This document shows positions 1,064-29,547 of a DNA stretch of 29,943 bases, piece after piece; within the stretch, counting starts at the first letter, position 1; each line of letters starts with the position of its first letter. Source of the DNA: a virus. The notes beneath the pieces are model-generated. The model did not search any database, was not told where the DNA came from, and saw only the letters and a program-made list of their open reading frames with translations. A program made the translations under genes and the position numbers. The stretch spans positions 1 through 29,943 of the IMG/VR virus record IMGVR_UViG_3300044695_001263; one strand, written 5' to 3'.

Positions 1064-1489
1064 TTACTCTTTATTAGAAGTAATAATATTAACTTTTATC
1101 TCAGAGATAGATTCACCTTTTGAAGTGGTATCAACTCTCTCAGTCAGGTTGTTTAGTCTTTGAGTTATGGATGGATTGTATTGACCAACCATGCCACCTT
1201 CAATCTGGTCATGTCGGATGGCCTCCTCTATGCGTGTACAGATTGTGGCATACTCAGAATATCTATCATCCTTGTTTGAGAAATAATCTGTTACTGTTGA
1301 ACCATTATCTGCAGCGTAACTTCTAAATCCTACTTGAGTCAATGGTCTCTCTAATGGGATAGCAGTTGCCTCACCGGTCTTATTAGAAAGTGAGTATTGA
1401 AATCTAGGATTAGCTTTGCACCAATCTCTGTAAGATACAAATAAGTCCCACATTGCCTCAGGGGTAGCTATGTATTTAGGCTTCGCCAT
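1064..1489 (-). CDS. terS: Terminase small subunit (gp3-like DNA-packaging protein)
   Basis: This 141-residue protein should recognise phage DNA and load the large terminase subunit for packaging. The layout matches the gp3-like small terminases of Bacteroidota phages: an N-terminal 'TPEAMWDLFVSYRDWCKANP' segment, the ERPLTQVGF motif near residues 47-55, YFSNK, and the C-terminal GGMVGQYNPSITQRLNNL followed by a TS-rich tail. The start ATG overlaps the end of the preceding 94-residue gene by 14 nt. Its position one small gene before terL supports the assignment. It is expected to be expressed late from the element at 1774..1787. Confidence 0.88.
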   Translation of the reverse strand: MAKPKYIATPEAMWDLFVSYRDWCKANPRFQYSLSNKTGEATAIPLERPLTQVGFRSYAADNGSTVTDYFSNKDDRYSEYATICTRIEEAIRHDQIEGGMVGQYNPSITQRLNNLTERVDTTSKGESISEIKVNIITSNKE

Positions 1490-1760
1490 TGTTTGACTCT
1501 TGCTCTTGTTTAACTTCTTCTAATCTCTCAACAAATTTCTTAGTGCGTTTCTTCTTCACTGGTACATCCTCAATTGCTGTGTACTCAATTACAATAGGCT
1601 CAGGAGTTACCTCTTCAAAAATTCTCTTCAATCCAGTAGTCATATAATAGTCAACTTTAGTCAAGTCAAGATTATCTACTACAATTGTCTTAGTGCCTTG
1701 AAATCTATCGTATATTTTCACAGTAGTTCCGATATACTCATCTTTAATTTTGTATGCCAT
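1476..1760 (-). CDS. Hypothetical late protein preceding terS (94 aa)
   Basis: I do not recognise the family. The protein begins MAYKIKDEYIGTTVKIYD, has a mixed alpha/beta-looking N-terminal two thirds, a KKKRTKK basic cluster around residues 69-75, and a glutamate/glutamine-rich tail. It is the first gene after the sigma-like factor and the first of the packaging unit; its ATG lies 13 nt beyond the late element at 1774..1787. It overlaps terS by 14 nt. Small proteins with this sort of sequence (a short 'YIG' beta region and a basic linker) recur near terminase or tail modules in Bacteroidota phages, but no job can be assigned from the sequence. Confidence 0.8.
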   Translation of the reverse strand: MAYKIKDEYIGTTVKIYDRFQGTKTIVVDNLDLTKVDYYMTTGLKRIFEEVTPEPIVIEYTAIEDVPVKKKRTKKFVERLEEVKQEQESNNGEA

Positions 1761-1764
1761 AATA

Positions 1765-2304
1765 TTACTTTTTATACCTATATTGTATCTCTTTGATATT
1801 TTGTTTTATTTCTTTGATTAGAAAGAAAGCTGATGTGTTATTGATATTAAAGTACTTAGCCAAAGATGTCTGAGTAGAGTAACCTTTGTCATAGTATGCC
1901 TCAAAGATAATCTTTTTTATTCTATCATCCAAAGAGTTACGGTATATCTCCACCATTGCCTTCTTGAAGTTATAACTCTCTTCTAAGTTCACTTTATGCT
2001 CAATGTCGCTTGAGTCATCTAATGAGTCACCTAGATACTCATGTGATCTATAGATGTCATCTTTTTTAGTCCTTGAACCTTGAGTCCATATCAGCTCATA
2101 CTTGATAGTGTTTAGTAGATAGCTTTTAGCCTTGTCTTCTGTTACCTCATCCATTTCTAGCTTAACACAATGAAGATAAGCATTATTAATGACAGCATCA
2201 GCTTCTATAGAGCTAGGAATTTTGAGTCGTTGAATAAAGTGCTTTGTGTATTTGAGCACCTCTGTGTAGTTTTTCTGCAAGTATTGGTCAAGCATTCTTT
2301 TCAT
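1765..2304 (-). CDS. Sigma-70-like (ECF-type) transcription factor, likely late-gene activator
   Basis: The 179-residue protein has the two-part layout of small sigma factors. Residues about 8-75 resemble region 2 (an acidic, aromatic helical bundle: DAVINNAYLHCVK ... AKSYLLNTIKYELIW). Residues about 125-175 resemble the region 4 helix-turn-helix (IFEAYYDKGYSTQTSLAKYF ... SAFFLIKEIKQNIKE). Its place between the replication/early genes and the packaging genes is typical for a late regulator. I infer that it directs RNA polymerase to the repeated TACAATATAGGTATG element, one copy of which sits in its own 3' end. The start may be ATG 2304 or the ATG three codons later; both overlap the preceding gene's end by a few bases. 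Without structure prediction, a non-sigma HTH protein remains possible. Confidence 0.7.
   Translation of the reverse strand: MKRMLDQYLQKNYTEVLKYTKHFIQRLKIPSSIEADAVINNAYLHCVKLEMDEVTEDKAKSYLLNTIKYELIWTQGSRTKKDDIYRSHEYLGDSLDDSSDIEHKVNLEESYNFKKAMVEIYRNSLDDRIKKIIFEAYYDKGYSTQTSLAKYFNINNTSAFFLIKEIKQNIKEIQYRYKK
1774..1787 (-). promoter_or_regulatory. Late promoter-like element, copy 5 (TACAATATAGGTAT)
   Basis: On the minus strand this reads TACAATATAGGTAT, identical over 14 bases to the elements that carry the start codons at 29518, 22209 and 16269. Here it lies inside the last codons of the sigma-like gene (encoding QYRY) and the next ATG is 13 nt downstream instead of being part of the element. 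This copy argues for a transcription signal, because sequence identity is kept where no start codon is present. Confidence 0.7.
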
Positions 2305-4718: not shown

Positions 4719-5218
4719 AATGCTTGTATTTGTTGTTTGGTTAGGTTAAAATCTGATTTCAATTTCTCTGCTGTGTACTTGCCTGACTCAATTGACTTAA
4801 GAGCTTCCTTGAATCTGTCATCTGTAAGAGTTGGCTTAGTGGCTGATGCGACTGAGTTACCATCATCATCTACAGCTTGAAGGCTCAGAAGTGATTGTAA
4901 AGTTGCTCTTCTGTAGTAGGTCGTTGCACTAATCATTTTTTGTGGATCAATATTGTCAGGCAATGTCAACCATGACTCTATCATTTCACCAGTCTCAATG
5001 TCAATTATCTGAGTGCTCAGTATCTTGTCATGGATAGGTTGTAATAGGAGCAGTCCATTCTCATGAAGGATAGGCTCAACTGTTTCTAGCAATGCGTTAA
5101 TATCAGCATAGCTCTTTTTAAAGTGAGGATTGGTGCTGTTCTTAACAACTTTGCCGATACTCATCTTTGCCTTATGGATCTTGGTCCACAATGGCACTTT
5201 GGTTACTTCTGTTTGCAT
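4715..5218 (-). CDS. erf: ERF-superfamily single-strand annealing protein
   Basis: The 167-residue protein carries the ERF family pattern: NPHFKKSYADINALLETVEP (residues 30-49), ENGLLLLQP, and ISATTYYRRATLQSLLSLQAVDDDGN (the conserved YYRR..L..LL.L...DDD motif, about 97-121). ERF proteins coat single strands and anneal complementary ends, acting in phage recombination and concatemer formation. It forms an operon with the exonuclease. A good host-type promoter (5240..5269) lies just upstream, giving a leader of only about 16 nt. Confidence 0.9.
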   Translation of the reverse strand: MQTEVTKVPLWTKIHKAKMSIGKVVKNSTNPHFKKSYADINALLETVEPILHENGLLLLQPIHDKILSTQIIDIETGEMIESWLTLPDNIDPQKMISATTYYRRATLQSLLSLQAVDDDGNSVASATKPTLTDDRFKEALKSIESGKYTAEKLKSDFNLTKQQIQAL

Positions 5219-5239: not shown

Positions 5240-5269
5240 CAAATGTAATAATTTTATTTAGTTGTGCAA
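5240..5269 (-). promoter_or_regulatory. Host-type promoter for the ERF-exonuclease genes
   Basis: On the minus strand TTG (5269-5267), a 19-nt spacer and TACATTTG (5247-5240) match the Bacteroidota sigma-A promoter form TTG-N19-TAnnTTTG. The expected start is about 6 nt downstream, near 5234, close before the ERF ATG at 5218. The -33 box touches the stop codon of the upstream 51-residue gene. Confidence 0.75.
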
Positions 5270-8569: not shown

Positions 8570-8599
8570 CAAATATACTAATTTTCCTTAGATTACAAA
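8570..8599 (-). promoter_or_regulatory. Host-type promoter for the PrimPol-helicase
   Basis: On the minus strand TTTG (8599-8596), 18 nt and TATATTTG (8577-8570) match the Bacteroidota TTTG/TAnnTTTG promoter. The predicted start near 8564 gives a leader of about 120 nt that contains the hairpin at 8459..8514. The iteron array begins 9 bp upstream of the -33 box, so a protein bound there could control this promoter. Confidence 0.7.
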
Positions 8600-9409: not shown

Positions 9410-9618
9410 ACTTTCTTAAATGTTTCGTTGTAGTATTCATGTGGGGTAATAAAATTACCTTGTGTTCCATTATTCCATCCATTACTATGAGCTCTAAGTA
9501 TCTGCTCCTTCTCCATTTCTTTGGCTTTTTGTATAGCTACTTTTACCCAATTCGGATTGTCTCCATATTCAGGCAATGTTAACTCTTTTTCTAACCAATC
9601 TACTGCTGTCTGTTTCAT
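9406..9618 (-). CDS. MKQTAV-family small protein, paralog 3 (70 aa)
   Basis: The protein starts MKQTAVDWLEKELTLP, has a QKAKEMEKEQI helix in the middle and ends HEYYNETFKKV. The same three blocks occur in the proteins at 9945..10187 and, in part, 10520..10759, so these are paralogs. The family is widespread in Bacteroidota phages as small early proteins of unknown role. The start overlaps a 26-residue membrane peptide gene by ATGA. Confidence 0.78.
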   Translation of the reverse strand: MKQTAVDWLEKELTLPEYGDNPNWVKVAIQKAKEMEKEQILRAHSNGWNNGTQGNFITPHEYYNETFKKV

Positions 9619-9695
9619 TTTATTCTTGTTATTAGTTTATAAATAAAAATTAACCAACTGACTGCAAACACAGTTAAACATACATCTTCTATCAT
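9615..9695 (-). CDS. Membrane micropeptide (26 aa)
   Basis: The 27-codon frame MIEDVCLTVFAVSWLIFIYK... ends LITRIK. It holds one hydrophobic helix (about residues 5-20) and a basic end, the shape of a single-pass membrane peptide. Its start overlaps the zinc-ribbon gene stop as ATGA and its stop overlaps the next gene's start as ATGA. This exact fit at both ends makes translation likely despite the size. Function unknown. Confidence 0.6.
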   Translation of the reverse strand: MIEDVCLTVFAVSWLIFIYKLITRIK

Positions 9696-9944: not shown

Positions 9945-10187
9945 TTATTCTGATTTAAAGGTTTTATTATAATGTTCTTCTATATCAAAAAAACAACTGT
10001 TATTTTGTAAGCAAGTTTCAGCAAAGTCAATAGTATTTTCCTTTTCCATTTCTTTGGCTTGTTGAATTAATTTCAAATAATCTTCAACTTTAATTGAAAT
10101 GTTAATTCTGCCAATACTTGCATTCTCCCAAGAATCACCTTGCTGTTCAAGTTGTTCTATAAATTGTTCTACTGCTGTTTGTTTCAT
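9945..10187 (-). CDS. MKQTAV-family small protein, paralog 2 (80 aa)
   Basis: Starts MKQTAVEQFIEQLEQQGDSW, carries QQAKEMEKENT in the middle and ends EEHYNKTFKSE, each block matching paralog 3 at 9406..9618. Helical and acidic; function unknown. The last codons contain AACCTTTAAA, a short sequence repeated before other start codons in this genome. Confidence 0.76.
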   Translation of the reverse strand: MKQTAVEQFIEQLEQQGDSWENASIGRINISIKVEDYLKLIQQAKEMEKENTIDFAETCLQNNSCFFDIEEHYNKTFKSE

Positions 10188-10188
10188 C

Positions 10189-10518
10189 TCATTCTGTTTT
10201 AAAGGTTAATTCTTCGTTAGTAAATTCAAAATATAGGTTTTGAAGTTCATGTAAGTATTTAATTTTTTTGTAATAGTTTCCAATAACAAAATGTATCTCT
10301 AATGTTGTCACACCAAATGATACTCCTAAACTTTTATAGCCTAACTTTTCAAAATTTAACTTTGATTTTTTCAACCATTCTTCAGTTAGTGGAACTCCTT
10401 TCATACAAGGTAGTTCTCCACTTTCTCTCTGTGCAATAGTTTGCCCAGTTACAATTTCTAATTGTTTTCTTGAACAACCATAATAATAATTCCCAATTCT
10501 TAATTCCGTTGCTTTCAT
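10189..10518 (-). CDS. Conserved phage protein, 'MKATELRIGNY' family (109 aa)
   Basis: The pattern MKATELRIGNYYYG at the start, PLTEEWLKK in the middle and HELQNLYFEFTNEELTF at the end is a family I recognise from many Bacteroidota phages and prophages, always as a small early gene. No function is established to my knowledge. It looks like a mixed alpha/beta protein. It is packed between two MKQTAV paralogs with 1-nt gaps. Confidence 0.8.
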   Translation of the reverse strand: MKATELRIGNYYYGCSRKQLEIVTGQTIAQRESGELPCMKGVPLTEEWLKKSKLNFEKLGYKSLGVSFGVTTLEIHFVIGNYYKKIKYLHELQNLYFEFTNEELTFKTE

Positions 10519-10519
10519 T

Positions 10520-10759
10520 TTAATCTAAATTAGAATTGTTAATTACTTCAATGGCTTGACTTTTTAAATCTCTATCGTGTGGCATACCACCTTCACACGT
10601 TTCAATAAACAATCTACAAAATGCTAAAGATTTATTTAATTGTTGTTCTTTTTGTTTTTCAAATTCTAAAGCTTGTTCAATAGCTTCATGCCATTCTATT
10701 TGAGTTGGGTTAATATCTTGAAGTTTACTCATTAACCACTCTACTGCTGTTTGTTTCAT
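10520..10759 (-). CDS. MKQTAV-family small protein, paralog 1 (79 aa)
   Basis: The start MKQTAVEWLMSKLQDINPTQ matches the other two paralogs, and the following helix (IEQALEFEKQKEQQLNKS) resembles their QAKEMEKE block. The C-terminal part differs (CRLFIETCEGGMPHDRDL). Function unknown. ATGA overlap with the preceding 81-residue gene. Confidence 0.76.
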   Translation of the reverse strand: MKQTAVEWLMSKLQDINPTQIEWHEAIEQALEFEKQKEQQLNKSLAFCRLFIETCEGGMPHDRDLKSQAIEVINNSNLD

Positions 10760-11001
10760 GATAGTTGTTTCTTTGAGTCAATATTCTTAAAGATGTCAGA
10801 GTCTGAGTCTATCCTTCCAGTAGCCTTGATAAAGTCTACCTCCAGCTTAGCTGAGTTGATTATCACAGATCCAATTGAGCTGATAGCTTTTGCCTTATCT
10901 ACCTCTTCTTTTATCTGTTCATTACTTAAAGACTCATCATTAAGTCTTTCTAATGCTGCAAACATGTGGTCACGTAGATCACTAATTTTGTTTCTTGCCA
11001 T
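10756..11001 (-). CDS. Conserved small helical phage protein (81 aa)
   Basis: A helical protein beginning MARNKISDLRDHMFAALERL with the conserved block AKAISSIGSVIINSAKLEVD (about 37-56) and FIKATG, a pattern seen in early proteins of Bacteroidota phages. Possibly a small DNA-associated or oligomeric protein; nothing more specific can be read. It starts 20 nt inside the HNH gene. Confidence 0.72.
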   Translation of the reverse strand: MARNKISDLRDHMFAALERLNDESLSNEQIKEEVDKAKAISSIGSVIINSAKLEVDFIKATGRIDSDSDIFKNIDSKKQLS

Positions 11002-15934: not shown

Positions 15935-16269
15935 TAGTCATAAATTGAGTTAGTTTGTGCTCCAGCCACTACCATTCTGCCTTCTTCTATCATTGTCAAT
16001 CCAGTTGGATCTAATGTAGGAGTAGAGCTTTCATAAACCTTATATCTGTACTGACCTTTTATAAAGTCAATATCTAAGGGATCAGTAATGGTGAATAGAT
16101 TAAATCTTGAGGGCCACAATGAAGTGTCAGCACCTTGCCAGTAAATTGGGTTAGGTGTTGTGTTAAACTCATCTTCAAACTCAAACAAGTAGTAAGCATT
16201 TGATAGTGTAGTGACCTCTGTTAAAGTCAGCACAAAACTATTGGTTGAGTCTTTCTCAAGATATATCAT
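15934..16269 (-). CDS. Small conserved structural protein before portal (111 aa)
   Basis: The frame is open 19 codons further upstream, but the ATG at 16269 is part of the late element TACAATATAGGTATG and is clearly the start (MIYLEKDSTNSFVLTLTEVT). The upstream extension would cross the promoter and the terminator arm. The pattern, with YYLFEFEDEF, SRFNLFTI and GQYRYKVYESS, followed by LTMIEEGRMVV, recurs in Bacteroidota phages as a small beta-rich protein beside the portal. It is probably a virion or assembly protein; the exact role is unknown. Confidence 0.8.
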   Translation of the reverse strand: MIYLEKDSTNSFVLTLTEVTTLSNAYYLFEFEDEFNTTPNPIYWQGADTSLWPSRFNLFTITDPLDIDFIKGQYRYKVYESSTPTLDPTGLTMIEEGRMVVAGAQTNSIYD

Positions 16270-16281
16270 ACCTATATTGTA
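16267..16281 (-). promoter_or_regulatory. Late promoter-like element, copy 4, containing a start codon
   Basis: Minus strand TACAATATAGGTATG, with the ATG at 16269 as the start of the 111-residue gene. It lies 20 nt downstream of the T run of the terminator at 16301..16329, so a new transcript must begin here. It opens the portal-connector-lysis unit. Confidence 0.75.
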
Positions 16282-16300
16282 CTTAGTAAAAATTTTAATT

Positions 16301-16329
16301 AAAAAAAAAGCCTTACATTTCTGCAAGGC
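16301..16329 (-). terminator. Rho-independent terminator after the tail tube gene
   Basis: Minus strand GCCTTGCA, loop GAAA, TGTAAGGC: an 8-bp stem with one G-U and a GNRA tetraloop, followed by nine T residues. It is the best terminator in the window and ends the protease-capsid-tube unit. Confidence 0.9.
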
Positions 16330-16354
16330 CTCTTTATCTATGGAGAAGAATAGA

Positions 16355-16913: not shown

Positions 16914-16941
16914 AAAAATAGGGGAGCACTTACTACTCCCC
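16914..16941 (-). terminator. Terminator-like hairpin after the major capsid gene
   Basis: Minus strand GGGGAG, a 9-nt loop and CTCCCC, followed by TATTTTT. A short but GC-rich stem with a modest T tail; it probably reduces rather than stops transcription into the next gene, since no late element lies in between. Confidence 0.65.
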
Positions 16942-16953
16942 TTGTATTAATGT

Positions 16954-17890: not shown

Positions 17891-18847
17891 TTATTTTGAT
17901 TTTGAAAATTTTACAAATTCTTTAAACTTTTCGTGAGCAGTCAATGCAACTGACTCAACTTCTTCTTCAGTCTCTACTGTGATGCTTTCCTCAATTTGAT
18001 TTTTAAGGGCAGCAATCATAGAGATAACTGAATTCATGTGCTCCTCTAATAAAGGTCTCACAATAGCAATAATAGCTTCAGCATCTACAGCTGGGTCAAT
18101 AGCCATAGCTACTTCTTCTGTTTCAGCTTCTTCTGTAGCTTGTGCCTCAGCATCAGCCACTTCTTCTTCCACAGCTGGATCAACTGATAACTCAGCCTCC
18201 ATCTCTGTAGGTACATCTTTAATCTCAACAACTTCTCCGTCTGTTACAACATAGATTTTGCCTTCAATTAGATGTTCTCCGTCAGGTAATTTCATAGTAT
18301 TTAATTTAATTTGTTCCGATAATTTCATACCTAAAAAGCCTTCTATAGAATAACCAATTTGTCCTGACTCTACAAGCTCATCATAGTAAGCTCTATCTGT
18401 TACTTGGCTATTCAACATCAATGTACCTTTTGGTACTTCAATACCATAAGTAGTGAATGCTTTGTCAGTTTTAGGACTATCAACTATCCAAGCCTCTAGG
18501 ATGTATGCTGGTACTTTTTCACTAGCATCATGCTCCAGGTTAAAGATGTCTTTGTTCTGTAGGTTACGCATGAACTTAGAATGGATTTGTTCAATTACTT
18601 CTACTGAGAATTCAGCATCATACTCTTCACCATCCTCATCCATTCTATAAATTTTCATAGGAATCATTGCTGGTGCAACTATCCTCATCTTAACAGAATC
18701 ACTAAAATGCCATAACACATTAGAGTTGAAAGCCATACCTTTAACCTTAATAGCAGGCTTAGAAGTAAAAGCAATCATTTCTATGCCTAAGTTCTCACCA
18801 TCAGCGTAGTCATCATCAATAGTTATTTTATAGACTGGTCTATCCAT
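17891..18847 (-). CDS. Prohead protease-scaffold fusion (XkdF-like)
   Basis: The N-terminal 170 residues match XkdF-type prohead serine proteases: FNLEHDAS (H106), AYILEAWIVDSPKTDKAFTT, VPKGTLMLNSQVTD and GQIGYSIEGF (S167), giving the His/Ser catalytic pair. Residues about 215-318 are acidic and alanine-rich (EEEVADAEAQATEEAETEEV) and end in a helix with a basic patch (HEKFKEFVKFSKSK), as in scaffold domains that bind capsid protein. The protein would guide prohead assembly and then remove itself. Its start codon forms the end of a late element. Confidence 0.85.
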   Translation of the reverse strand: MDRPVYKITIDDDYADGENLGIEMIAFTSKPAIKVKGMAFNSNVLWHFSDSVKMRIVAPAMIPMKIYRMDEDGEEYDAEFSVEVIEQIHSKFMRNLQNKDIFNLEHDASEKVPAYILEAWIVDSPKTDKAFTTYGIEVPKGTLMLNSQVTDRAYYDELVESGQIGYSIEGFLGMKLSEQIKLNTMKLPDGEHLIEGKIYVVTDGEVVEIKDVPTEMEAELSVDPAVEEEVADAEAQATEEAETEEVAMAIDPAVDAEAIIAIVRPLLEEHMNSVISMIAALKNQIEESITVETEEEVESVALTAHEKFKEFVKFSKSK

Positions 18848-18859
18848 GCCTATATTGTA
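18845..18859 (-). promoter_or_regulatory. Late promoter-like element, copy 3 (one mismatch), containing a start codon
   Basis: Minus strand TACAATATAGGCATG, with C for T at one position. The ATG is the start of the protease-scaffold gene. The divergent plus-strand genes start only 45 bp away, so the two promoters share this spacer. Confidence 0.7.
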
Positions 18860-18867
18860 AAACTTCT

Positions 18868-18875
18868 TATATTTG
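18868..18875 (+). promoter_or_regulatory. Host-type -7 box for the plus-strand pair (TATATTTG)
   Basis: TATATTTG matches TAnnTTTG exactly. No good TTG lies 18-21 bp upstream, so this is a half-site. A start near 18881 would give a leader of about 11 nt before the ATG at 18892. Confidence 0.45.
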
Positions 18876-18891
18876 TTAAAAATTAAAATCT

Positions 18892-19437
18892 ATGGTAACA
18901 ATACTAGGTAAAGAAGTACCTAATCAATTGAATGAATTGACAGTACAGCAGTTTGAAACAATCACAACTATTCATGGAAAAGTAGAGCTAGATGCAATTG
19001 ATAAGCATTTAGAAGTGTTTGAATTCTTAGGAGTTCCTACCATTGAATTTGATGATGTACAGATTGAAGAGTTCAAAGAAATAGTAAGAGCTTTCAATGA
19101 CATTCAATCAAAGCCTGAGTTAGTGAACACACTAGAATTGGATGGTTACACTTATGTTGCATTTGAGGATCAGTTCAAATTATCTGTTAAAGACACTAAG
19201 CACATTGAGAGAATTATGGCATCCAAGCACAAAGGATACATCTCTGAGTTATTAGCTGTTTTATTCAAACGTACTGACTTGACTAAAGCTGAGCACTATG
19301 TAGATGCACACATAAAGCTAAAAGCTAAAATGATTAGAGAGTTAAAAGCTGAGTTAGCAGTCCCATACCTGGTTGAAATTGGTCAGAAATTATCTAAACA
19401 AATGCCAAAGGATGTACCTACCGAAATCATGGAGTGA
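18892..19437 (+). CDS. Probable tail assembly chaperone, paralog A (plus strand, 181 aa)
   Basis: Begins MVTILGKEVPNQLNELTVQQ and contains repeated acidic-hydrophobic helices. The P-x-x-L/W-x-E-[LI]-[TD]-V-x-Q-[FY]-x-E start pattern, the central 'EFLGVPTIEFDDVQIEEFKE' and the later TYVAFEDQFKLSVKD are shared with the next gene, showing that the two are paralogs. Proteins of this pattern often sit near the tape measure in Bacteroidota phages, and I read them as the G-like tail assembly chaperone group. Both lie on the plus strand, against all other genes. Function is inferred from pattern and neighbourhood only. Confidence 0.6.
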   Translation: MVTILGKEVPNQLNELTVQQFETITTIHGKVELDAIDKHLEVFEFLGVPTIEFDDVQIEEFKEIVRAFNDIQSKPELVNTLELDGYTYVAFEDQFKLSVKDTKHIERIMASKHKGYISELLAVLFKRTDLTKAEHYVDAHIKLKAKMIRELKAELAVPYLVEIGQKLSKQMPKDVPTEIME

Positions 19438-20143
19438 GATTGATGTATTCCAATATAAAGAGGTCAGAGACTTATACAGTATTCAAGAAGTATTCAGTAG
19501 AGAGATTGAGATTCTCGCTGCACTAGCAGACATTAACTCTGAGGACATTGAAGACTTAGATATTGAAGAGGTCACTGTGATGCTGGCTGATATTAAGTAC
19601 ATTAATTCAGAGCCATCTAAGAACTTTAAGAGACAGCTTGATGACTATCATTATAAGCCACTAGATAAGTTAACCATTGGTGAGTATATTGACCTTGAGT
19701 TCTACTTTTCAAAAGACTACAATAAGCACATTGGTCACATTGCATCCATTATGTATAGGCAAAAGTCTACCAATGAATGGGGTGTGACTATTTATGAGCC
19801 GTATGCTTTCAGTCCAAGAGATAGACATGAGCTATTTGATGAGTATAAAATCAATGACATCTATGGAATTATTCCTGAGTTCATATCTTTTAGAGAGAAC
19901 TTCATGGATACCTATGGTAACTTATTCCATGACAATACTGCTGAGGATGATGATGAGGTAAGACCTACCAATAGTGAAGAGGCCAAAGAAATACAAAAAG
20001 AAAAGAGTCAGTTAAAATGGGGATGGGAAAGATTAATCTATTCTCTATGCAATGAAGACCTCACTAAGTTTGAAGAAGTCACTAACCTACCACTTATCAT
20101 GACCTTCAACATGTTAGCCATGAAGAAGGAATTAAACATCTAA
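19412..20143 (+). CDS. Probable tail assembly chaperone, paralog B (plus strand, 243 aa)
   Basis: The frame could extend back to a TTG at 19373, but the ATG at 19412 with CAAAGG in front gives a 26-nt overlap with paralog A and is preferred. MYLPKSWSEIDVFQYKEVRD aligns with the start of paralog A (PNQLNELTVQQFETI). The middle (REIEILAALADINSEDIEDL, then IEEVTVMLADIKYINSEPSK and LDKLTIGEYIDLEFYF) matches the same family. The C-terminus (TSEEAKEIQKEKSQ-like helix, then KWGWERLIYSLCNEDLTKFE) is longer than in A. It ends 12 nt inside the convergent gene at 20132..20581. A +1/-2 frameshift product joining A and B is possible but no slippery site was found. Confidence 0.6.
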   Translation: MYLPKSWSEIDVFQYKEVRDLYSIQEVFSREIEILAALADINSEDIEDLDIEEVTVMLADIKYINSEPSKNFKRQLDDYHYKPLDKLTIGEYIDLEFYFSKDYNKHIGHIASIMYRQKSTNEWGVTIYEPYAFSPRDRHELFDEYKINDIYGIIPEFISFRENFMDTYGNLFHDNTAEDDDEVRPTNSEEAKEIQKEKSQLKWGWERLIYSLCNEDLTKFEEVTNLPLIMTFNMLAMKKELNI

Positions 20144-20745: not shown

Positions 20746-22209
20746 TTAAAAATTAGAGATGTCTAGTAGCTCTTGAGTAGTTGATTCACCGACTGCTGAA
20801 TTTGTAAAAGTTACAATTAGATATAAAGTACCTGAAGGAAGTGCAGCATCTAAGCCCACAACTGTACTTGTGCCATTGTCATTGATAACTCCAGTGGCCG
20901 CATTCAATCCTTTAATGTTACCACCTTCAATCTCAAATACTCTACTTATTGTAGCTAATCTAGTACCAGTAACAATAGTAGAACCAGTTGAAAGTATCTG
21001 AACTGCTCCACTTAGATTATTACTATTAGGACTTAGATAAGCTCTAATAGTACTTCCAGCAACTGCACCTTTTGTGATTCTTAAAGTATTAATCTTAAAG
21101 ATAGTGCCATTGCTCAAAGTAGCTAACTGAGTAGAACTAACAATAGTCTCAGATGTTGTGCCAGTTAAAGTGTAATTTGTTGTGACAGTTGTTTTAAACC
21201 ATCCTAAACCCGTTAGGATAGGTTTATTTTTCCAAAGTGAAGTTGAACTTTCATAAACCAAAGTTTCATTGTTGGCTGGTGCAGTTAATAATACATCATG
21301 TAACTCTCCTAGTTCATAACCATTTTGTATAGCATATAAGATACGACCATTTGTATTCTGTGATCGTGTAACTGTACCAATGAATACTGTGTGAGCTGGT
21401 TGCGTTGGGGGTGTTGTTGTTACTTGTCCTGCTGTTTGACTAAGCCATAATTTATCACCAATTGAATAAGCTGTGGTGTCTAAGTTGTTTACCTCTCCAC
21501 TTGTTACAACAAAGCCAGTAGCATCATTTGCAATATCTTCATAAACTGCTCCTAATGTTTTTGAGCTTGTAGCCTCAGTGTCTGCATCAGCTAACAATAT
21601 CTCAGGATAAGTACCACTTGAGCTTGAAGATTTTAAATAAACAATAGAACCTTTTACTACAGTTGCTCCAGTTTTATTGATAACTCCTACCATTTCTTTG
21701 CGTGATGACTCAACTATTCCATCATTGTCAGGGTCATAAACTGCCTTAGTCATGTAGTCACTTAGTACAGGTATATCTGATGTAGTTGCTATAGTGTAGC
21801 TCCCAGTTGTTTTATCAGGAAATTCAAGAATAACACCAGGATTGCTAACATTTGTATTCTGTAGTGAGCTTTCTTCAGCTCCAGTTCTCAAAGCTATTTC
21901 ACCAGTATCTCTCAATGTGACATGAGTGTTAGCTAATGTATTCTCTGTTCTTATATCTATTCCACTAACTGTAGTAGCTTCGTTAACTCCTGAAGTTATT
22001 GTAATTGAATTTGTAGTAGTGGAACCTATATCAGTAACTTGCTGTAAGTTCTGACTACCACCACCGCCACCAGCATTGATAATCTCTTGACCAGTTATGG
22101 AATAAGTGTCATAACCAGTGCCAGTAAGTACACTTACCTCAAGCAAATCTGTAGCTTGTAGGTTAGCTCCTTTCGGATTCATCTGTGATATCTTCTGTCT
22201 ACGTGCCAT
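20746..22209 (-). CDS. Tail fibre or spike protein (487 aa)
   Basis: The N-terminus (MARRQKISQMNPKGANLQAT, with DLLEVSVLTGTGYDTYSITG) is a common virion-attachment start in Bacteroidota phage fibres. A glycine run GGGGGS at about residues 48-53 follows, then threonine/serine/valine-rich beta repeats and small turns (NSITITSGVNEATTVSGIDI; LNTLANTHVTL-like repeats), as in trimeric fibres. The region around 180-330 has a compact beta domain (SIVYLKSSSSSGTYPEILLA, then SIGDKLWLSQTAGQV and FIGTVTRSQNTNGRILYAIQ). It likely binds the host surface. Its ATG belongs to a late element. Confidence 0.8.
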   Translation of the reverse strand: MARRQKISQMNPKGANLQATDLLEVSVLTGTGYDTYSITGQEIINAGGGGGSQNLQQVTDIGSTTTNSITITSGVNEATTVSGIDIRTENTLANTHVTLRDTGEIALRTGAEESSLQNTNVSNPGVILEFPDKTTGSYTIATTSDIPVLSDYMTKAVYDPDNDGIVESSRKEMVGVINKTGATVVKGSIVYLKSSSSSGTYPEILLADADTEATSSKTLGAVYEDIANDATGFVVTSGEVNNLDTTAYSIGDKLWLSQTAGQVTTTPPTQPAHTVFIGTVTRSQNTNGRILYAIQNGYELGELHDVLLTAPANNETLVYESSTSLWKNKPILTGLGWFKTTVTTNYTLTGTTSETIVSSTQLATLSNGTIFKINTLRITKGAVAGSTIRAYLSPNSNNLSGAVQILSTGSTIVTGTRLATISRVFEIEGGNIKGLNAATGVINDNGTSTVVGLDAALPSGTLYLIVTFTNSAVGESTTQELLDISNF

Positions 22210-22221
22210 ACCTATATTGTA
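22207..22221 (-). promoter_or_regulatory. Late promoter-like element, copy 2, containing a start codon
   Basis: Minus strand TACAATATAGGTATG with the ATG at 22209 starting the tail fibre gene. It directly follows the stop of the 150-residue gene (22222), so it begins a separate unit for the fibre genes. Confidence 0.75.
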
Positions 22222-22674
22222 TTAACCTGGTAAATTAGTTATAAGAGGCACCTGGCAATTGGTCCAATTACTTATGTCAACATCTAATGTCATCACCCAT
22301 CCTGCAGCATAGTCAAGTAGCTGATTATTCAATGGAGTGATTGATGGTGATCCAACAATATCAAAGGAATAATCATCACTAAAATTGAAATAGTTGATTA
22401 AGTCTACCAATATCTGATGGCAGTCTGACAATATCACTGTGATGTTAGCTCTATCCTTTTGGATGATATCTAAGCAATATACTTCTAAGCTGATAGTGTT
22501 TACATCCATTGTAGTAGATGCCACAATTGGAGTGATAAAAACCAAAGGATACCTCTCATCTTTAGTGGCAAAGTTAGGAAGTTGCTCATTGAAGTCACTA
22601 CCTACTTTCTTAACTTGTAGGTGATCGTTATAAAATGCTTCAATCTTGTTTATTAGTGCTTGATAACTGTTCAT
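22222..22674 (-). CDS. Conserved tail-associated protein (150 aa)
   Basis: An alpha/beta protein, MNSYQALINKIEAFYNDHLQ ... ERYPLVFITPIVASTTMDVN ... VYCLDIIQKDRANITVIL ... AGWVMTLDVDISNW. The order helix, then three to four beta strands, helix, then strands resembles tail terminator (gpU-like) proteins that cap the tail tube, and the length fits. The position after the tape measure is less usual for a terminator, so the call is tentative. The start overlaps the tape measure stop by ATGA. Confidence 0.6.
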   Translation of the reverse strand: MNSYQALINKIEAFYNDHLQVKKVGSDFNEQLPNFATKDERYPLVFITPIVASTTMDVNTISLEVYCLDIIQKDRANITVILSDCHQILVDLINYFNFSDDYSFDIVGSPSITPLNNQLLDYAAGWVMTLDVDISNWTNCQVPLITNLPG

Positions 22675-28032: not shown

Positions 28033-29518
28033 TGATTGTGTCGTTGTTACCTATCCTTACTTGAATAGATTGCTTGATTAGATTCTTATTTCGTTGCTGA
28101 TAGACTTCAAAGTTGTTAGTCAAAACATTACAGCTGACATACTCAGTTGACTCAGGCACGTGAATTATACAGCCAGCCTCATCGAATAGTACAGCACCAT
28201 CTTCTGTGATGCGATAGAGTACATTCTTGATGTAAGTCTGTGGTGATGTCAGCAACTGCTGAAAGTATACACCCTCCTCCTCTGTCATAAAGTTGGTTGA
28301 TAAGTCAAATGTCTTAGTGACCTCAGTGTTTATGTTAACTGTACCTTGTTCATAACTTTTATATCCCCACTGACCATCAACAACTGCACCAGGTACATCT
28401 TGATTGTAAGTCTGTCTATTGATGTTGCCTCTCTCATAGCTCTTAAGCTGAAATGCAAAGCTACTCCATGAGCCTAATCTATCTAAGAACACAATGTGAC
28501 TTTCAGAGATTAACATTCGTCTGTCTATGTTTACCTTGTACTTGATTGATTTTTGTGTTGGTGTAAGTCCATCAACATACCAAACTTCATAGCTCTTAGT
28601 GTCATTCTTTACCAATGGAGCTGTGCCACTAATCAATGTAAGTGAACCATAGTTATTAGGACCAACTGCCACACCTTTGATAGTCTCAGTACCAGCTACC
28701 ACCTTAGAGAATAAATCTCCATTGTCATTTTGAAAGTATACCTTGCCAGCTGGTGCAACACCAAAGCCACGCATGTTTAACCATAAATCTTGACCAGGTG
28801 TTGAGCTAAATTCTTGAGGCTGGTCTGTTAACCATTCCTTAGTAGTACCGTCAAGCTCATAGTCAGTCTCATCCCAGTAAGGGAACTCAAGCCATGAATA
28901 TACACCATTGAAGACAAATTTGTCAAGTGTTGACTCTATGTCTAAGTCTATAGTCTTTCTTTTATCAGCATACTCAACAACTCCATTGATAGTAGCATCT
29001 GTTACTCCTGACCATAGAGCATTGATTGTGAAGTTAGTGGTGCCAGTTATAGCTATCACAGTATGAAGTCCCTCAACACCAGGATTGGCTACTCCACCAT
29101 CAGCTTGAGTGATATTCACCTGGTCACCTACTTGGAATGGATGAGTAGCTGTGATGCGTACATTACCACCATTATCTGTAAGTGATGCTGTGTAGCTCAT
29201 GTCAAAGATATACTCCTCACCAAACTTAACATCATAGCCAAAGTAACTATTGGATGCATCATAGAAAGTAGTGATTGAAGGATTGAAGTCAAAGCTCACT
29301 GAGTTGCTCAGTAGCTTAGATAAATCTTGCTCACCATAGCCAGTGCCAAATGTAGGTAGTGCTTTGTAGTATCCTATCCTTAGATTAGTCACTGAGTCAA
29401 ACACCTCAAATATGTATCTGAAGCCTGACTTATTCTTGTTAGTAGAGTCAATGATAAACTTGCACTCGTTATAAGCTGGAGTGAAGTCCTGAGGCTGTGC
29501 TATGATTGTTTGTGCCAT
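28025..29518 (-). CDS. Tail protein, first gene of the tail unit (497 aa)
   Basis: A beta-rich protein with an N-terminal part like distal-tail or baseplate proteins (MAQTIIAQPQDFTPAYNECK, then FIIDSTNKNKSGFRYIFEVF). Residues about 113-190 form a small inserted beta domain (NVRITATHPFQVGDQVNITQ, then HTVIAITGTTNFTINALWSG) that I have seen as a mobile module in several phage structural proteins. The C-terminal half repeats beta motifs with NYGSLTLISG and YEQGTVNINTEVTKTFDLST. Virion location is likely; exact position in the tail is inferred. Its ATG is part of the late element at 29516..29530. Confidence 0.72.
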   Translation of the reverse strand: MAQTIIAQPQDFTPAYNECKFIIDSTNKNKSGFRYIFEVFDSVTNLRIGYYKALPTFGTGYGEQDLSKLLSNSVSFDFNPSITTFYDASNSYFGYDVKFGEEYIFDMSYTASLTDNGGNVRITATHPFQVGDQVNITQADGGVANPGVEGLHTVIAITGTTNFTINALWSGVTDATINGVVEYADKRKTIDLDIESTLDKFVFNGVYSWLEFPYWDETDYELDGTTKEWLTDQPQEFSSTPGQDLWLNMRGFGVAPAGKVYFQNDNGDLFSKVVAGTETIKGVAVGPNNYGSLTLISGTAPLVKNDTKSYEVWYVDGLTPTQKSIKYKVNIDRRMLISESHIVFLDRLGSWSSFAFQLKSYERGNINRQTYNQDVPGAVVDGQWGYKSYEQGTVNINTEVTKTFDLSTNFMTEEEGVYFQQLLTSPQTYIKNVLYRITEDGAVLFDEAGCIIHVPESTEYVSCNVLTNNFEVYQQRNKNLIKQSIQVRIGNNDTING

Positions 29519-29530
29519 ACCTATATTGTA
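29516..29530 (-). promoter_or_regulatory. Late promoter-like element, copy 1, containing a start codon
   Basis: Minus strand TACAATATAGGTATG, with the ATG at 29518 starting the first tail gene. It lies 17 nt after the terL stop at 29548, so the tail unit is transcribed separately from the packaging genes. Confidence 0.75.
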
Positions 29531-29547
29531 TTTTTATTAGAATTCAA

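Follow-up and report, generated by a model that had tools for sequence, protein, structure and literature searches.

A putative phage sigma factor and its candidate late promoters, one of them inside the sigma gene, in a group of small uncultured phages

The subject of this study is a window of 29,943 bases, the whole of the IMG/VR virus record IMGVR_UViG_3300044695_001263, and within it a gene for a 179-residue sigma-like protein and a short element that recurs at late genes (Table 1). The window is a complete phage-like record with a direct terminal repeat of 127 bases. A preliminary description had placed the gene between the early and the late genes, and it was found there in the sequence, on the minus strand. 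On its upstream side lies a DNA-metabolism cluster (exonuclease phrog_5715, primase-helicase, resolvase-like protein), which the sigma-like gene closes; past it follow the genes for the small (TerS) and large (TerL) terminase subunits and then the structural genes (tape measure, capsid-like, head-protease-like and portal), which continue around the circle on the same strand. Other helix-turn-helix proteins are also encoded nearby, one of 74 residues and a DnaA-C-like protein of 124 residues.

The element, (T)ACAATATAGGTATG, is present five times in the window, always on the late strand. Four of the copies run into a start codon that opens a structural-gene operon, and the fifth lies in the final codons of the sigma-like gene (GAG ATA CAA TAT AGG TAT AAA AAG), which hold ATACAATATAGGTAT, confirming the earlier claim that the codons for QYRYKK contain a copy. 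The match to ATACAATATAGGTAT is exact at three of the sites and imperfect at the other two. A chance repeat can be ruled out, since the 11-mer TACAATATAGG occurs five times and 0.02 occurrences would be expected in first-order Markov sequences.

Table 1. Genes, predicted promoters and a terminator-like hairpin of the window (ORF, open reading frame; aa, amino acids; nt, nucleotides)
Feature	Position	Strand	Basis or remark
Sigma-like gene, 179 aa, ATG start	1765..2304	(-)	ORF list and structure model
TerS gene	1064..1489	(-)	GP3_package / phrog_606 match
94-aa ORF, first gene past the embedded promoter in the window clade	1476..1760	(-)	ORF list
Predicted late promoter, -10 ATACAATATAGGTAT (exact), in codons 173-177 of the sigma-like gene	1774..1788	(-)	codons frozen in 115 distinct genes
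-35-like TAAAACA of the embedded promoter, codons 166-168; AAC 18 nt before AATATA	1802..1808	(-)	
Predicted late promoter, -10 (exact ATACAATATAGGTAT) abutting the ATG (29518-29516) of the 497-aa ORF	29517..29531	(-)	-35-like TTCTAAT at 29553-29547
Predicted late promoter, -10 (exact ATACAATATAGGTAT) abutting the ATG of the 487-aa ORF (20746-22209)	22208..22222	(-)	-35-like AAC at 22240-22238
Predicted late promoter, -10 TTACAATATAGGCAT (2 mismatches to ATACAATATAGGTAT) abutting the ATG of the head-protease-like ORF (318 aa), with the capsid-like gene downstream	18846..18860	(-)	-35-like AAC at 18877-18875
Predicted late promoter, -10 GTACAATATAGGTAT (1 mismatch to ATACAATATAGGTAT) abutting the ATG of the 111-aa ORF, upstream of portal	16268..16282	(-)	-35-like TTAATT
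Intrinsic terminator-like hairpin and T-run, just before the 111-aa/portal promoter	16304..16335	(-)	counterpart at the same location in the relatives read
Host-type (Bacteroidota sigmaA) early promoter, TTG-N19-TACATTTG	5240..5269	(-)	21 nt before a 167-aa early ORF
Host-type early promoter, TTG-N18-TATATTTG, preceding the primase-helicase gene	8570..8598	(-)	

The element is part of a bipartite arrangement, AAC-N17-19-AATATA, in which AAC ends 17-19 nt before AATATA, corresponding to 14-16 nt before TACAAT. AAC in the -35 region is a hallmark of promoters for extracytoplasmic function (ECF) sigma factors (PMC4153023), and the arrangement has the ECF-type layout of an AAC -35 and a -10 with a spacing of about 15-17 nt. 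In the genomes and contigs compared, AAC was found at the given distance before the 497-aa gene in 19 of 25 cases, the 487-aa gene in 9 of 9, the 318-aa gene in 14 of 18 and the 111-aa gene in 5 of 16, as well as at the sigma 3' end in 21 of 25. This amounts to 31-100% per promoter class, against 5.4% (29/534) of the other AATATA sites in the same genomes. The pattern recovers most late promoters of each genome, plus a few other sites. In one genome (G012:C1), GTATGAAATATAGGTATTAA occurs twice in tandem on the late strand within the early region, at 4959 and 5009, and has no -35 AAC there.

Within the sigma-like gene the arrangement has left its mark on codon usage. Among 115 distinct coding sequences of the family, the median codon purity over 50 conserved degenerate columns is 0.61, and the codons of K167, Q174, Y175 and Y177 are completely frozen, while every Q168, I173 and R176 is encoded by a single codon (CAA, ATA and AGG, respectively). 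The frozen codons coincide exactly with the -35 (AAA CAA) and the -10 (ATA CAA TAT AGG TAT), and the codons of the intervening spacer vary.

The majority of copies end precisely in a start codon, which could be taken to mean that the motif serves translation initiation or RNA processing at late genes and is not a promoter. However, the distance between element and ATG varies (9, 11, 20 or 24 nt): G011, G012 and G018 have 20 nt before the 497-aa gene, G010, G013 and G017 have 11 nt before the 318-aa gene, and the window clade has 24 nt at the sigma 3' end. The -35 moves along with the -10 in the displaced copies, so that the spacing of the two boxes stays constant while the distance to the ATG changes, which favours a promoter over a translation signal. 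In addition, the motif is absent from other late gene starts, its AGG is too near the ATG for a Shine-Dalgarno sequence, and the A at -3 that is preferred in Flavobacterium (PMC6847099) is replaced by G; a Shine-Dalgarno or Kozak-like signal was ruled out on the grounds of the displaced copies and the missing A. The 111-aa gene of G010 and G013 starts with GTG in place of ATG. Furthermore, the terminator-like hairpin immediately upstream of the portal operon means that a new transcription start is needed there. Thus, the element is almost certainly a promoter, and a purely translational or RNA-processing role is barely conceivable.

A similar hairpin, with counterparts in relatives, is found at 16920-16942, at most about 50 nt upstream of a 178-aa gene that has no late promoter; transcription may terminate there in part, after the capsid gene, or the RNA may be processed. 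At the 318-aa promoter, in the region 18846-18892 of the window, the -35 stretch TAACAAATATA reads on the opposite strand as TATATTTG, a host-type -7 box. The AAC before this gene was therefore dismissed as independent evidence for a -35, the same bases forming the divergent TATATTTG. As TATATTTG stands just upstream of the plus-strand ORFs 18892-19437 and 19373-20143, early-type and late-type promoters may overlap divergently here, and the bases are kept in other genomes.

The 179-residue protein has hundreds of relatives in IMG/VR, and tblastn found no match to it in 50,697 cultured phage records. Four groups of relatives were read: A (69-97% identical), B (42-49%), C (about 41-44%) and D, a single contig (about 42-45%). 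In groups A to C, the element stands at the start of the 497-aa gene in 25 of 25 cases; it also precedes the 487-aa (9/9), 318-aa (18/18) and 111-aa genes (16/16) wherever these were compared, and it is found at the sigma 3' end in all of up to 25 genomes or contigs (25/25). It should be noted that counts within a group are not independent because of shared descent. The element was found at none of eight control gene starts (tape, p150, capsid, p178, portal, p188, p149 and terS); at a ninth (p934, 934 aa), two AATATAGTA look-alikes matched the loose pattern and lack the element, and one further 934-aa entry was misplaced, the gene running over the record end. In group C every copy carries AATATAAGT (reading ACAATATAAGTATG), the copy in the sigma-like gene included, where the change turns R176 into K. 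The element thus drifts as a set across its copies, which is the kind of drift that a shared reader produces. In group D, AAC-N17/18-AATATA is retained at the homologous sites of the 318-aa and 111-aa genes; it is also present at the gene that follows p150 and ahead of one more late gene.

Short ORFs also lie around the embedded copy. In most relatives (L042-L077 and groups B and C), the ATG inside the element opens a short membrane-protein-like ORF that is out of frame with the sigma-like gene. These overlapping ORFs begin with MKSVDIIGL..., MKPSQVISI... or MTISQ..., and the window clade has the 94-aa ORF in their place.

The sigma-like gene and the element also occur together. Among terS loci with enough upstream DNA, 199 of 199 have a sigma-like gene within 3 kb; many of these loci were fetched by the sigma-like gene itself, and a sample of 20 records selected through the portal gene is less biased. 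In that sample all 14 records with a length of 26 kb or more contain the gene as well as the element, so that no relative with the element and without the gene was seen among them, and the three records without the gene are short fragments of 20-25 kb. Likewise, no intact-genome record with the full element set but without the gene was present among the records examined. In one 91.6-kb record (L409, IMGVR_UViG_3300044957_000168), the sigma-late block lies at one end; this may be a chimera, a concatemer or a larger phage.

Co-occurrence alone cannot assign the reader, and the element might instead be read by another phage protein, such as the 74-aa or the 124-aa protein mentioned above, or by an alternative sigma factor of the host, with the sigma-like protein acting elsewhere. 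The 74-aa protein likewise has widespread homologues, but it was not detected in the element-bearing genomes G011, G012, G016 and G018, all of which have the sigma-like gene, and a bipartite -35/-10 is the layout that is read by a sigma factor. Such a division of labour is quite improbable. A promoter of a single-subunit phage RNA polymerase (T7-like or mitochondrial-like, ATATAGG/ATATAAG) was also considered and rejected, no such polymerase being seen among the annotated window genes, although no dedicated search was made.

What kind of protein the sigma-like gene encodes was addressed by structure prediction. An earlier model from 15 close sequences was too poor (pLDDT 62.7) and was superseded by an AlphaFold model from an alignment of 23 family members of groups A to D, which has a mean pLDDT of 80.9 and consists of two confident helical domains, a sigma2-like domain (residues 1-75) and a sigma4-like helix-turn-helix domain (97-178), joined by a disordered linker (77-96, pLDDT below 50). 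The model thus has the ECF layout of sigma2 and sigma4 connected by a linker, without sigma3. Its Foldseek matches in the PDB are nearly all sigma factors, mainly of the ECF type: the best is 9n9q_C (E=1.6e-3, probability 1.00), and E. coli sigmaE (1or7, probability 0.98), SigH and SigL of Mycobacterium tuberculosis and AlgU are among the others, while region 4 of SigC alone matches with a target-normalized TM-score of 0.60-0.62. In BFVD, the matches include an uncharacterised homologue of 39% identity and several phage sigma factors; viral structures annotated as sigma-70 region 2 or ECF are among the best, and the ECF sigma of Cronobacter phage GAP52 is among the weak ones (E=0.18). The sequence profiles point in the same direction at lower scores. 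TIGR02937 of NCBIfam spans residues 5-170 (E=0.0012, 18.6 bits, cut-off 42.9) and matches 6 of the 23 members (best 2.4e-4), TIGR02985 matches five members below threshold, PF07638 reaches 12.1 bits (cut-off 21.1) and the Sigma70_ECF profile is sub-threshold at E=0.18. The sigma-like two-domain layout put forward in the preliminary description is therefore upheld by structure prediction and, weakly, by sequence, the predicted fold being related to that of sigma factors.

Several observations nevertheless weigh against a phage sigma factor as the reader. The best Foldseek E-value is only that of 9n9q_C, and whole-chain TM-scores are low (0.3-0.35). Every curated sigma cut-off was missed, with only sub-threshold matches in Pfam, PHROGs, NCBIfam, PDB sequences and hhalign, and the profile-profile comparison with ECF sigmas by hhalign was not significant (P=0.07). 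The -35 is variable, with TAAT in place of AAC at two window copies. The divergent group D contig, L411, has the gene but has lost both the 3'-end copy and the QYRY peptide, so that the claim of a copy inside the gene holds for the window and for groups A to C and fails there. Finally, the RinA profile TIGR01636 also matches 7 of the 23 members (best E 0.0015). The protein could accordingly be a late activator of the RinA/ArpU/Ltr type, whose sigma4-like DNA-binding domain would aid the host sigma holoenzyme without replacing the host sigma. The second domain is the better-supported match when taken separately (3hug), and the gene has the position of a RinA- or Ltr-like gene, closing the early cluster and standing immediately before terS and a promoter that it would regulate. 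On the other hand, the RinA score of 16 bits is below its cut-off of 31.9, a first domain is predicted with confidence, and the full-length matches are proteins with sigma2 and sigma4. Moreover, the -10 TACAATATAGG differs from the TAnnTTTG of the host, and -10 and -35 both evolve as phage-specific elements. An activator of this type is therefore unlikely, and the protein is probably a true sigma factor. The model predicts an ECF fold, and the protein probably acts like an ECF sigma; it is not filed as a member of a curated ECF family because its scores lie below the profile cut-offs.

The early region carries intergenic promoters of the form TTG-N17-23-TAnnTTTG, which is the consensus of Flavobacterium housekeeping promoters (PMC6847099). 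The sigma-like gene forms the far end of the gene run behind the promoter that precedes the 167-aa ORF, and several relatives have this promoter sequence 21 nt ahead of an ORF. Matches to the stricter TTTG form are about as frequent as expected by chance, and individual early promoters are thus less certain than the late ones. The late element has no TTTG and does not qualify as a Bacteroidota sigmaA promoter; a host sigmaA promoter was ruled out as its identity for lack of TAnnTTTG. Shine-Dalgarno-like sequences precede none of 33 ORFs. Based on the type of the early promoters, the host of the phage group is probably a member of the Bacteroidota. A host assignment from a group C contig binned in a pond metagenome-assembled genome (L242, JAIXRY010000011.1) was dropped: sampled genomes of that phylum measure 0.5-1.1 Mb, which suggests Patescibacteria and, probably, a mis-binned phage contig, a true host link being the less likely reading. 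Also in the window, three small early ORFs (9599-9639, 10168-10208 and 10740-10780) share the start MKQTAVE/D and a surrounding repeat; they resemble a duplicated gene cassette, and L411 has a similar one.

Taken together, these results are best explained by a phage-encoded, strongly diverged ECF-like sigma factor that directs host RNA polymerase to the late promoters, a reading to which we assign a probability of roughly 0.74. The protein would be made with the early and middle genes from host-type promoters, join the host core polymerase and guide it to about 3-6 AAC-N17-19-AATATA-(GGT/AGT) promoters per genome. Each late operon would have one promoter: that of the terminase, that of the tail genes from the 497-aa ORF, and those of the 487-aa ORF, of head protease and capsid, and of the 111-aa ORF and portal. 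The embedded promoter, whose -35 and -10 both fall within the final dozen codons of the sigma gene, would fire the 94-aa ORF, TerS and TerL. It is very probable that the protein reads the element in some form, as had been proposed; start sites and time of expression are what we infer. The host-type promoters on early genes versus the phage element on late genes also fit the proposed early-to-late switch, which might need no other factor. The -10 hexamer TACAAT is followed after about 7 nt by the A of the ATG in most copies, and late mRNAs are therefore predicted to be leaderless or nearly so, a moderately likely outcome; most Flavobacterium mRNAs have leaders (PMC6847099).

If this is true, a transcription programme would be available for a large uncultured group of small freshwater phages (hundreds of IMG/VR contigs), with a host housekeeping promoter for early genes and a phage sigma for late genes. 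Its sigma factor and promoter would form a natural pair that is compact and has a well-defined target, and the four clades would offer matched variants for studying the evolution of promoter specificity. If the hosts are Bacteroidota, an orthogonal expression tool for the phylum could be derived from it, and leaderless late translation would become directly testable. Tentatively, and at slightly less than even odds, one might go further and see here a phage sigma family not described before, with an entirely leaderless late regulon that is transcribed from promoters fused to start codons, and in which the sigma 3' end is both protein code and a complete -35/-10, locking sigma and specificity in one stretch of DNA where they co-evolve.

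Several known systems invite comparison. Like RinA, ArpU and Ltr activators, the protein would activate the late operon just downstream, and it has weak RinA profile matches; however, Ltrs are described as activators of about 130 residues, whereas a two-domain sigma-like protein and several dispersed promoters are found here. Bacterial ECF sigmas (sigmaE, SigH, SigL and 9n9q_C, the last described as part of an RNA-guided transcription complex) share the two-domain fold with a linker and the AAC -35, but the present family stays below their profile cut-offs and its -10 is the AT-rich AATATAGG and not of the CGT type. T4 gp55 and the SPO1 late factors embody the same concept of a phage late sigma; gp55 needs the sliding clamp and is not known to use a -35 element, in contrast to the element described here, which has one. 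A close parallel is offered by gp36 of phiEco32 and gp47 of phage 7-11, phage sigma factors for middle and late genes that read tAATGTAtA and the bipartite GTAAtg-16-aCTA, respectively, and whose diverged relatives have diverged promoters (PMC8948821, PMC4281155). They are phage sigmas (ECF in phiEco32-like phages) that join host RNA polymerase and read a few late promoters. Sequence matches to the present family were absent from the 50,697 cultured phage records, and the genomes of about 30 kb, a consensus of its own, promoters fused to start codons and one promoter inside the sigma gene set it apart. In all likelihood, the protein works as gp36 and gp47 do, yet it appears to belong to a separate sequence family with its own promoter. 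It would be distinguished by a promoter that lies within the 3' end of its own gene and by promoters that merge with start codons.
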